NCBI GenBank assembly: GCA_018970445.1
Contig: JAGWWF010000023.1
Span: 1-60,790, forward strand
Origin: Alphaproteobacteria bacterium
GTDB lineage: Bacteria > Pseudomonadota > Alphaproteobacteria > Sphingomonadales > Sphingomonadaceae
Length of the DNA stretch: 60,790 nt
Reading direction: 5' to 3'
Part shown: positions 32,488-60,790 of the stretch, piece by piece
How positions within the stretch are numbered: the stretch's first letter is position 1
Layout of the letters: each line of letters opens with the position of its first letter
Notes under the pieces: model-generated
What the model was told of the DNA's origin: nothing
Seen by the model: only the letters and a program-made list of their open reading frames with translations
Database searches by the model: none
Position numbers and translations under genes: made by a program

Positions 32488-32732
32488 GATCCTCTCCCTC
32501 TGGAGAAGGTGCCTGCAGGGCGGAGGGGGCCCGCGAAGCCAAAGCCAGGCCCCGGCTGGCGCGGCCGGCGGCAAGTCCGCCGAGTCCGCTTGGGGGTTAT
32601 AAAGGGAAGAAGCAAGAAAGTGCGCGGCGGAGCCGCGCCGTCGGACGACTCACGAAAAAGGCGACCTGCAAGGTCGCCTTTTTTGGTCGCCGGCCGGAAT
32701 TCGCCGAGTCTCAAAATAGCTACGCTATTTTG
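32488..32732. repeat. Modular intergenic element, copy 1
   Basis: The modules run in this order: a cloverleaf-like C/G-rich block (32488-32535); a GCCGGCGGCAAGTCCGC block with the first GAGTC (32582); a 7-bp hairpin GCGCGGC/GCCGCGC (32622-32638); GACTC (32647); a 13-bp A/T-flanked terminator stem (32655-32683); GAGTC (32706); and a 9-bp hairpin CAAAATAGC/GCTATTTTG (32712-32732). Copy 2 at 55670 has the same order and spacing. The element fills the gap between convergent S9 peptidase and rpoZ genes and abuts the rpoZ stop. Confidence 0.85.
32655..32684. terminator. Bidirectional terminator inside element copy 1
   Basis: A 13-bp perfect stem with an A-run on the left and a T-run on the right around a GCA loop can end transcription from both the S9 peptidase gene and rpoZ. 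Confidence 0.85.
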
Positions 32733-32739
32733 TGCCGGC

Positions 32740-33081
32740 TCATTCGTAATCCCCACCCATGTTCTGGTTGCGCGGCGGCTGTGCCGCCGTGATCCGCAGC
32801 GCCTCGGCCGAGGCGGACAGCGAACCGATGATATCGGGCGTGTCGTCATCTTCGGCCTGCACCTTCTGCATGCCGACCACCAGCGATTCCGTCAGGTCCG
32901 CGGGGCGGATCGTCTGTTCGGCGATCTCGCGCAGGGCCACCACCGGGTTCTTGTCCCGGTCGCGCTCGATCGTCAGTTCCGAACCCGACGAGATGTTGCG
33001 GGCGCGATGCGCGGCCAGCAGCACCAGGTCAAAGCGGTTGGGCACCTTGTCGACGCAATCTTCAACAGTCACGCGTGCCAT
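32740..33081 (-). CDS. rpoZ: RNA polymerase omega subunit
   Basis: Omega helps assemble RNA polymerase and is linked to ppGpp response. The 113 residues begin [20 protein letters not shown], then [11 protein letters not shown] and [11 protein letters not shown], which are the family signatures, with a C-terminal acidic and Gln/Asn tail. The ATG at 33081 is fixed by that start. The rsh gene for ppGpp lies 1 kb away, on the opposite strand, an arrangement frequent in proteobacteria where the two are neighbours. Confidence 0.95.
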
Positions 33082-55669: not shown

Positions 55670-55910
55670 GATCCTCCCCCTCTGGGGGAGGTGCCCGCAG
55701 GGCGGAGGTGGCGGCCGGGCCCTTGCTCTGGCCCCGGCGACCGCAGCCGGCGGCAAAGCCGCGCGAGTCTGCTGACGGTGCAAAGGCAAAGGAAAAGGAA
55801 GCGCGTGGCAAAGCCACGCCGTCAGACGAGTCAAAAAGGGCGGCCTGAGGGCCGCCCTTTTCGCTCGCTGGCCGGGCTTGCGCGAGTCGGCGAATAGCTC
55901 CGCTATTCGC
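55670..55910. repeat. Modular intergenic element, copy 2
   Basis: It has the same module order as copy 1 at 32488: the C/G cloverleaf block (55670-55716), GCCGGCGGCAAAGCCGC with GAGTC (55765), the hairpin GCGTGGC/GCCACGC (55803-55819), GAGTC (55828), a 12-bp terminator stem (55834-55861), GAGTC (55884) and the hairpin GCGAATAGC/GCTATTCGC (55890-55910). Hairpin sequences differ from copy 1 but still pair. It lies between the convergent HerA and aceA genes and abuts the aceA stop. Confidence 0.85.
55833..55862. terminator. Bidirectional terminator inside element copy 2
   Basis: A 12-bp stem with A-run, GGGCGGCC, TGAG loop, GGCCGCCC and T-run serves both the HerA gene and aceA. Confidence 0.85.
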
Positions 55911-55918
55911 GCGCCGCG

Positions 55919-57511
55919 CTACGCCGCAAACTGGTTCATCGTGTTGTGCACCCCACCAGCCTTCAACGCCGCCTCGCCGGCGAAATATTCCTTGTGATCA
56001 TCGCCAATGTCGGAACCCGACATGTTCTGATGCTTCACGCAGGCAATGCCCTGGCGGATTTCGGCGCGCTGCACATTCTTCACATAACCCAGCATGCCGG
56101 CATCGCCGAAATATTCCTTCGCCAGATTGTCGGTCGACAGGGCGGCCGTGTGATAGGTCGGCAGGGTGATCAGATGGTGGAAGATGCCGGCGCGGGCGGC
56201 GGCATCGCGCTGGAAGGTGCGGATGCGTTCATCGGCTTCGGCGGCCAGTTCGCTGCCGTCATAATCCACGCTCATCAGCCTGGCGCGGTCAAAGGCGCTC
56301 ACGTCGCGGCCGTCCGCGGCCCAGGCATCAAACACCTGCTGGCGGAAATTCAGCGTCCAGTTGAAGCTGGGCGAGTTGTTGTAGACCAGCTTGGCATGCG
56401 GCACCACTTCGCGGATGCGGTCCACCATGCCGGCGATCTGGCCGATGTGGGGCTTTTCCGTCTCGATCCACAGCAGGTCGGCGCCGTTCTGCAAGCTGTT
56501 GATGCAATCCAGCACGCAGCGATCCTCACCGGAACCGGCGCGGAACTGGAACAGGTTCGACGGCAGGCGCTTGGGCCGCAGCAGCTTGCCATTGCGCGAA
56601 ATCACCACATCGCCATTGCCCACCTGCGACACGTCGATCTCGTCGCAATCAAGATAGCTGTTGTACTGGTCGCCAATGTCGCCCGGCGCGCGGCTGTAAG
56701 CGATCTGCTTGGTCAGCCCGGCGCCCAGCGAATCGGTGCGGGCGACGATCACGCCGTCCTCCACGCCCAGTTCCAGGAAGGCGTAGCGGATGGCGCGAAT
56801 CTTGGCCAGGAAGTCCTCGTGCGGCACCGTCACCTTGCCGTCCTGGTGGCCGCACTGCTTTTCGTCGCTCACCTGGTTTTCGATCTGCAGCGCGCAGGCA
56901 CCGGCCTCGATCATCTTCCTGGCCAGCAGATAGGTGGCTTCCGCATTGCCGAAACCGGCATCGATATCGGCGATGATCGGCACCACGTGCGTCTGGAAAT
57001 TGTCGATCTGGTTCTGCACGGCCTGGGCCTTCACATTGTCACCCGCGGCGCGGGCGGCATCCAGATCGCGGAACAGGCCGCCCAGCTCGCGGGCATCGGC
57101 CTGGCGCAGGAAGGTGTACAGCTCTTCGATCAGGGCCGGCACACTGGTCTTCTCGTGCATGGATTGATCGGGCAGCGGGCCGAATTCGCTGCGCAGCGCC
57201 GCGATCATCCAGCCCGACAGATACAGGTAGCGCTTGTCGGTGGTGCCGAAATGCTTCTTGATCGAAATCAGCTTCTGCTGGCCGATGAAGCCGTGCCAGC
57301 AGCCCAGCGACTGGGTGTATCTGGCCGGATCGGCATCATAGGCGGCCATGTCGCGGCGCATGATCGCGGCGGTGTAGCGCGCGATGTCCAGCCCGGTCTT
57401 GAAGCGGTTCTGCAGGCGCATGCGCGCGACGCTTTCCGCGCTGATCGATTCCCAGCCGGGCTTGCCGGTGATGGCGGCCGCAGCGGCGTTGACTTCGGTC
57501 TGATAGGTCAT
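55919..57511 (-). CDS. aceA: Isocitrate lyase
   Basis: This enzyme splits isocitrate to glyoxylate and succinate, the first glyoxylate-shunt step. The 530 residues match the long Pseudomonas-type lyases rather than the shorter E. coli enzyme. The catalytic-loop Cys is in EKQCGHQDGKV, so KQCGH replaces the common KKCGH. VPIIADIDAGFGNAEATYLL and VIVARTDSLGAGL are metal/substrate segments. I chose the ATG giving MTYQTEVN. The upstream region holds repeated TTTGACA boxes, likely operator sites for the divergent regulator. Confidence 0.95.
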   Translation of the reverse strand: MTYQTEVNAAAAAITGKPGWESISAESVARMRLQNRFKTGLDIARYTAAIMRRDMAAYDADPARYTQSLGCWHGFIGQQKLISIKKHFGTTDKRYLYLSGWMIAALRSEFGPLPDQSMHEKTSVPALIEELYTFLRQADARELGGLFRDLDAARAAGDNVKAQAVQNQIDNFQTHVVPIIADIDAGFGNAEATYLLARKMIEAGACALQIENQVSDEKQCGHQDGKVTVPHEDFLAKIRAIRYAFLELGVEDGVIVARTDSLGAGLTKQIAYSRAPGDIGDQYNSYLDCDEIDVSQVGNGDVVISRNGKLLRPKRLPSNLFQFRAGSGEDRCVLDCINSLQNGADLLWIETEKPHIGQIAGMVDRIREVVPHAKLVYNNSPSFNWTLNFRQQVFDAWAADGRDVSAFDRARLMSVDYDGSELAAEADERIRTFQRDAAARAGIFHHLITLPTYHTAALSTDNLAKEYFGDAGMLGYVKNVQRAEIRQGIACVKHQNMSGSDIGDDHKEYFAGEAALKAGGVHNTMNQFAA

Positions 57512-60740: not shown

Positions 60741-60790
60741 ATCCTCCCCCTCTGGGAGAGGTGCCCGCAGGGCGGAGGGGGCGGGCCAGG
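60741..60790. repeat. Modular intergenic element, copy 3 (first module, cut by window edge)
   Basis: Five bases after the aceB stop begins the same C/G cloverleaf block that opens copies 1 and 2 (ATCCTCCCCCTCTGGGAGAG, then the GCCCGCAGGGC dyad and a G-rich arm). The rest lies beyond the window. Confidence 0.75.

Follow-up and report, generated by a model that had tools for sequence, protein, structure and literature searches.

The question raised by this locus is what kind of multi-hairpin element is repeated between the genes of the contig, and whether its hairpins are kept for their shape. According to the original prediction, made for the window (the whole stretch of DNA analysed here, 60,790 nt), two full copies lie at 32488-32732 and 55670-55910 and a third starts at 60741. 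We found both full copies to be real and their sequences to be as described, the three covarying hairpins included. Each of them is, however, not one element: elements A and B lie side by side (Table 1), and it is B that has several hairpins. The third copy consists of element A only, and the contig stops at 60790, beyond which a B copy is not judgeable.

Table 1. Positions of elements A and B in the window, with the parts of the two B copies and their host genes
Feature	Position	Strand	Description
Element B, copy 2	55740..55919	-	R1 match 55744-55890, R2 match 55880-55920
Host of copy 2, isocitrate lyase family gene	stop codon 55921-55919	-	
Copy 2, SL1	55744..55771		outer CNG/CN'G stem, AGT (within GAGTC) facing C, inner GC stem
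Copy 2, purine-rich tract	55772..55802		pyrimidine-rich in host-gene direction
Copy 2, SL2 (hairpin 2 of the original prediction)	55803..55819		GCGTGGC-AAA-GCCACGC
Copy 2, central compound hairpin	55820..55874		basal CRG/CYG, bulged A, CGAG/CTCG, terminator, T-runs on both strands
Copy 2, SL4, compound (hairpin 4 of the original prediction)	55880..55919		outer GCGCG/CGCGC, AGT facing C
Copy 2, apical stem of SL4			CGAATAGC/GCTATTCG
Element B, copy 1	32558..32739	-	R1 match 32562-32712, R2 match 32702-32741
Host of copy 1, rpoZ (RNA polymerase omega, Rpb6 domain)	stop codon 32742-32740	-	
Copy 1, SL2	32622..32638		GCGCGGC-GGA-GCCGCGC
Copy 1, terminator core	32660..32684		GGCGACC/GGTCGCC and T-run
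Copy 1, SL4	32702..32739		apical stem CAAAATAGC/GCTATTTTG
Element A beside copy 2 (REP-like, separate family)	55671..55712	+	
Element A beside copy 1	32489..32530	+	
Element A alone, behind malate synthase gene	60741..60782	+	contig end 60790

Element A is a REP-like repeat of approximately 42 nt, ATCCTCCCCCTCTGGGGGAGGTGCCCGCAGGGCGGAG, and is present with at most three mismatches at 18 places in the 3.03 Mb genome, several of which form inverted pairs approximately 50-80 nt apart. It lies within 400 nt of a B copy at 3 of the 18 places, one place (60741) being the contig end, and as judged by eye it adjoins 4 of 15 inspected B copies (L019, L024, L026 and L031).

Element B is a multi-hairpin unit of approximately 180 nt (overall range approximately 105-185 nt). 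On the plus strand of the window the order of its parts is SL1, a purine-rich tract, SL2, the central compound hairpin and SL4 at the host stop codon; read in the host direction it is SL4, the bulged central hairpin, SL2, a pyrimidine-rich tract and SL1. SL1 and SL4 have the same 3x1 internal loop, 5'-G-AGT-CNG-3' facing 5'-CN'G-C-C-3', with N and N' covarying, while the central hairpin has CNG/CN'G, a single bulged base and then four pairs, and the CGTC of element B sits inside this paired central stem. In copy 2 the 3' arm of SL1 has one additional base. The folding z-scores of the minus-strand RNA of the two full copies are -4.1 and -4.6, and in 15 copies inspected by eye no covariation was seen for an end-to-end pairing of the whole element. 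SL1 as a free module was considered and rejected, all 15 places with at most one mismatch lying in copies matched by R1, a covariance model built from 12 B copies; one place with two mismatches (C39:27841) and those with three look like chance (control 21). At L031 (G000 C14:15604-15841), L139 and L130 a palindrome of the GGACTTGATCC type interrupts the SL2 side or stands in its place, and seems to be another repeat within element B.

A BLAST search with copy 2, as had been proposed together with the original prediction, gave 14 further B-type matches in the genome (E 1.3e-46 to 3.1e-22), and R1 gave 19 places at E <1e-14 plus a divergent copy at C25, i.e. approximately 20 B copies. Within the genus all 21 genomes have R1 matches at E <=0.01, with 5-34 in each and 466 in total, a number that includes reverse matches of the same palindromes. 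Moreover, a pattern scan of named genomes, for which an exact match to SL2 and CGTC was used and 80 of 109 stretches were taken, identified at least 80 loci, nearly all in Sandarakinorhabdus or in Sphingomonadales MAGs; SL2 conservation in this set is partly a selection effect, since the loci were chosen by an exact SL2 match. The R1 scores at these loci equal those in the same-genus genomes, and the window genome probably belongs to Sandarakinorhabdus, which the NCBI taxonomy places in Sphingosinicellaceae, Sphingomonadales. R1 matched 88 times over the 80 listed loci, which together with the 19 own copies of the window genome gives 107 copies; L224 had no R1 match, and L192 (40.6 bits), which may be chance, was kept among the 107. 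Head-to-head B pairs, with the SL1 or SL2 sides facing, recur in several genomes, some of them behind a tRNA-Val gene (G000 C14:31461-31788; L181, L182, L185 and L208; L117). Inverted B copies approximately 2.1-2.5 kb apart are also present in seven genomes (G000, at C36:40886 and 43350, G001, G002, G009, G010, G011 and G022); they may represent a single conserved locus with an element on either side.

Outside the genus R1 matched in 2 of 117 Sphingomonadales genomes. A further model, R3, covers SL2, GAGTC and the central stem and was built from genus g22, one g10 copy, rplL copies and the two window copies. It gave candidate matches at E <=1e-4 in 59 of 296 Sphingomonadales genomes and 15 of 79 genera, all in family f1, with at most 15 candidates scored per genome; five of the 59 genomes are of the window's genus, and many have one weak match. 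The best model matches gave 42 distinct copies of this shorter relative of B outside the genus, from 25 genomes and with 17 of the copies from one genome; three duplicates and two rows that were weak or antisense had been removed from 47 matches.

Is the shape of B under selection? SL1, the central stem and SL4 were parsed in 73, 99 and 104, respectively, of the 107 copies. AGT is present in 71 of the 73 parsed SL1 and GAGTC in 91 of the 104 parsed SL4; GANTC in the central stem is present in 63 of 99, and variants with GAGCC and CTGTC occur with the stems retained. The last 22 nt of the purine tract average 86% purine (71 parsed copies). In the 88-copy alignment 96.9% of the cells are paired, double changes occur at 30 of 40 pairs versus 12.1 after shuffling, and the covariation score is 0.257 versus 0.085, a value reached by 0 of 500 shuffles; the shuffle tests overstate significance, since the copies are related and the statistics are without phylogenetic correction. 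Structures slid along the alignment score far below the true structure as well (at most 0.065). The outer pair of SL1 is GC in 57, AT in 14 and CG in 2 of the 73 parsed copies, with no exception. For the central R/Y pair we counted A-T 40 and G-C 57 with two exceptions among 99, and for the next variable central pair CG 42, GC 39 and AT 12 with six exceptions among 99.

Covariation in hairpins 2 and 4 had been singled out in the original prediction. For hairpin 2, i.e. SL2, it is seen at one of seven pairs within the genus (TA 43, CG 37) and, across genera, at three of the six pairs modelled, and for hairpin 4, i.e. SL4, in both the outer and the apical stems. Specifically, the outer 5-mers of SL4 are perfect in 70 of 104 copies (shuffled mean 26, maximum 39), with 14 different perfect pairs, and SL4 alone, in 17 copies of one length class, has a score of 0.348 versus 0.128 (0 of 500 shuffles). 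In the other genera (44 distinct rows) double changes occur at 9 of 15 pairs versus 3.5, with a score of 0.250 versus 0.074 that again was reached by 0 of 500 shuffles; the outer stem of SL4 in genus g22 pairs, but is too uniform for covariation (sum 69 versus 68.1 shuffled). Neither of the two outcomes that would have spoken against the prediction, namely that only these copies exist or that hairpins 2 and 4 lack covariation, was found. Covariation in every helix, over 88-107 copies and far above the shuffled and slid controls, supports the prediction that selection acts on a structured shape, be it of RNA or of DNA, and by these comparisons the hairpins are kept as shapes.

Both full copies abut the stop codon of a minus-strand gene, as predicted. 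Of the 107 copies 98 have a minus-strand gene as right neighbour, and for 94 the 3' end of this gene lies 13-56 nt from the end of the core, a gap of about the length of SL4 that is uncertain by a few nt for the 19 own copies. In 49 of 84 copies 4-6 nt separate the outer stem of SL4 from the stop codon or the CCA, and B begins at, or a few bases behind, a stop codon, a tRNA CCA or the 3' end of RNase P RNA. The predicted setting between converging genes fits the two full copies and is not general: using a simple purpose-written ORF caller we found 60 of the 107 copies between convergent genes, 35 with both neighbours on the host strand and 12 other or uncalled. Since the 3' end abutment is tight and the left side loose, B belongs to the right-hand gene. 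That SL1 and SL2 serve the left gene was rejected; SL1 is about equally intact whatever the orientation of that gene (39 of 60 with a convergent left gene, 25 of 35 with one on the host strand).

The hosts of the 107 copies are 82 proteins in 34 clusters and 12 tRNAs (Gly 7, Val 3, Lys 2), and 13 were left unassigned by the script, among them RNase P RNA at L214. Representatives of the host clusters match GroEL, isocitrate lyase, Rho, RpoZ, L31, S4, IlvC, PntB, GlnA, DnaN and TonB receptors; ETF-QO-like is a provisional label. Outside the genus 35 of the 42 copies have a minus-strand gene as right neighbour, and for 31 its 3' end is no more than 70 nt away. GroEL, Rho, S4, a TolR/ExbD-like protein, RpoZ and RNase P RNA are hosts common to Sandarakinorhabdus and other genera, and a topoisomerase C-terminus is a host common to Sandaracinobacter (L206) and genus g22.

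B copies that have the same host but come from different genomes are on average 77.6% identical (99 pairs), those with different hosts in one genome 73.0% (317 pairs) and those that share neither 70.7% (3405 pairs), these being raw means with standard deviations of 6-7 points. At the isocitrate lyase (icl) locus of the 21 genus genomes R1 scores at least 68 bits in 11 and is weak in L141 (39) and L144 (32), with L129, L131 and L140 judged by R1 score; L142, L143 and L145-L147 are without B, and L148 is outside judgement. In G011 and G003 a plain terminator is present at what seems to be the same junction, with no clear target duplication by eye.

The label "terminator" given to one hairpin in the original prediction is right for the two full copies, but does not describe a constant part of the family. 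Runs of at least three T are present on both sides of the central hairpin in 90 of 107 parsed copies, with means of 4.6 and 4.9, and a separate T-run test was failed by 9 of the 107. Termination at the central hairpin is not a constant feature because none of the 42 copies outside the genus has a terminator there; in 7 of the 42 a U-run follows SL2 in the host direction. At rplL of the window genome (L7/L12, between L10 and rpoB) the central hairpin is without T-runs and a separate terminator lies behind it. The rplL set comprises 21 loci, of which five were unparsed by the script and L299 runs off the contig; by eye, eight have a terminator-less element together with a separate terminator and seven a plain terminator only. 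Terminator-bearing R1 matches lie beside rplL in G007 and G027, and rplL is thus not always accompanied by the terminator-less form. At L116, L330 and L141 SL2 looks like a terminator in the host direction (a stem followed by at least four T), e.g. behind rho in L330, and the pyrimidine-rich tract behind SL2 in Sandarakinorhabdus may be a relaxed U-tract; for the purine tract a Rho site is a further conceivable reading. At L267 (1725-1976; G000 C25) the terminator-less element and the separate terminator are followed by an ORF of the YefM/Phd antitoxin family, which is located between rplL and rpoB.

What, then, is element B? Its shape, polarity, hosts and retention at loci are evident from the genomes compared, and from these we infer, with a probability of roughly one half, that B forms a structured module at the 3' end of its host gene, is inherited vertically and most likely serves to finish and protect transcripts. 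The host transcript would end within or just behind the module, and exonucleases would be kept from its 3' end by SL4 at the stop codon. In most Sandarakinorhabdus copies the stop signal would be located in the central hairpin, where it would be usable from both sides; alternatives would be SL2 with a U-run behind it, as in some copies from elsewhere, and a separate terminator that follows the element, as at rplL. The repeated AGT/C internal loop is a probable docking site for a putative factor, and the copies may have spread rarely and been partly homogenised by recombination.

Certain data speak against a 3'-end module. It is dispensable, given the plain terminator alone at two icl loci (G011 and G003) and seven rplL loci, its AGT loop is not absolute, and terminator-bearing matches do occur beside rplL (G007 and G027). 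Moreover, the G.T/A.C asymmetry expected of a one-strand RNA is missing in SL4 and in the central hairpin. Specifically, the apical stems of SL4 (parsed in 95 of the 107 copies, at a threshold biased toward paired stems and with a few parsing errors) have 737 Watson-Crick pairs, 9 G.T, 9 A.C and 16 other; for these 18 mismatches P(<=9 G.U)=0.004 under an assumed expectation of 80% G.U. The corresponding numbers of G.T versus A.C are 11 versus 15 in the central hairpin, omitting two constant T-G columns (143/194 and 164/177, counted from 0), 8 versus 6 in the other genera and 4 versus 0 in 11 tRNAs used as control. SL1 is the only helix that leans (20 versus 5), toward the strand opposite to the host and partly from copies without a real SL1. 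Folding of both strands of the eight rplL copies, a point in favour of the module, gave a lower (better) value in the host direction for six and a higher one for two. Finally, where a copy bears the terminator, SL2 and one arm of the basal stem come after the U-run in the host direction and are nevertheless conserved, which counts against a 3'-end module because efficient termination would exclude them from the RNA. The missing wobble bias and the conserved arms would be compatible with a hairpin formed in DNA, with folding of either strand or with palindrome repair.

A broader proposal, which we make tentatively, is that B represents an unnamed class extending over family f1, the constant part of which would be the bulged hairpins, two of them with an identical AGT/C loop, and not the terminator. 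These would be read by a dedicated putative factor that determines where the transcripts of core genes, tRNAs and RNase P RNA end or what becomes of them.

A less likely reading is that the hairpin is selected as DNA, as single-stranded DNA or a cruciform bound by a protein (a selfish REP/MITE-like element or a chromosome-organising site), gene 3' ends being no more than places where insertion is tolerated. The mostly Watson-Crick pairs without a clear wobble bias, the basal stem and SL2 kept beyond the U-run, the dispersed copies and the head-to-head pairs would suit such a hairpin, as would the finding that the 15 SL1 places all lie in R1 copies, i.e. that the unit spreads whole. Against this, the polarity to the host 3' end is strict and the abutment close, the same hosts recur in other genera, the two element-free icl loci lack a clear target duplication by eye, and a search limited to the Y1 transposase (PF01797) gave no match in the window genome and a match in 1 of 13 genus genomes; the REP reading is weakened.

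We consider it improbable that B copies are no more than bidirectional terminators with palindromes maintained through template-switch repair, so that the covariation would be mutational rather than selected. This reading could account for the T-runs on both sides in most copies and for apical SL4 stems of which 57 are distinct, 32 of these perfect, in the 95 parsed copies, and which differ as a whole between orthologous icl copies. However, the AGT/C loops and the central bulge stay unpaired where palindrome repair would erase them, and the 42 copies from other genera are without a central terminator; repair alone is disfavoured because the conserved bulges remain unpaired.

Least probable, and likewise weakened, is that B is a CIR-type repeat linked to CcrM methylation with GANTC in hairpins as the conserved part for epigenetic control: the frequent AGT of SL1 and GAGTC of SL4 agree with it, as do the intergenic CIR repeats of approximately 110 bp with GANTC at a loop described in PMC2229807, but the central GANTC is missing in 36 of 99 copies, outside the genus GANTC is present in 28 of 42 SL4 (missing in 14) and in 0 of 42 central stems, and the GAGCC and CTGTC forms keep their stems.

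If the shared hosts of a vertically inherited 3'-end module reflect common descent, a bacterial family has kept a multi-hairpin 3'-end cassette on core genes that are unrelated, in several genera, and the terminator moves between the hairpins of the cassette. The role of dispersed palindromes behind genes, and whether hairpins act as RNA or DNA, would thereby become testable, the forms with and without terminator and the element-free loci in sister species being natural experiments.

Comparison with databases gave no Rfam match over element B at the gathering score for the window, 12 loci and the L214 stretch; when copy 2 was scanned permissively, 14 matches came up, none of which reached that score. 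No description of B was found in the literature searched, which included the text of PMC2864571 and covered subscription journals thinly. Among known systems, the pneumococcal SPRITE (rho-independent terminator-like element; PMC3049150, PMC10969869) is by its name a dispersed terminator-like repeat as well, a likeness of name only and in another phylum. The GTAG- and CGTC-tagged REP/BIME, according to PMC3733652 palindromes of 20-40 bp with an unpaired tag, resemble B as dispersed hairpins that lie near the 3' ends of convergent or tandem genes; in contrast, B is a composite unit of approximately 105-185 nt in which CGTC is paired and no stem starts with AT, and thus lacks the size, the unpaired CGTC tag and the AT-starting stem given there for CGTC-REPs. 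The Y1 tyrosine transposase of REPs with a RAYT is absent from the window genome, and in 15 B copies inspected by eye there is no consistent terminal repeat as in MITEs. Intrinsic bidirectional terminators are like the central hairpin of most Sandarakinorhabdus copies, whereas B adds conserved hairpins and bulged stems, and the terminator is missing in the other genera examined and in eight rplL copies. The Caulobacter CcrM-associated intergenic repeats, CIR, were reportedly described by Chen and Shapiro in 2003. As described in PMC2229807 they are the closest to element B, being alphaproteobacterial, intergenic, approximately 110 bp, folded and with GANTC in a hairpin; compared with that description, B differs in having a dispensable GANTC, three to four hairpins, often a terminator, and a tight polarity to the 3' end of its host.
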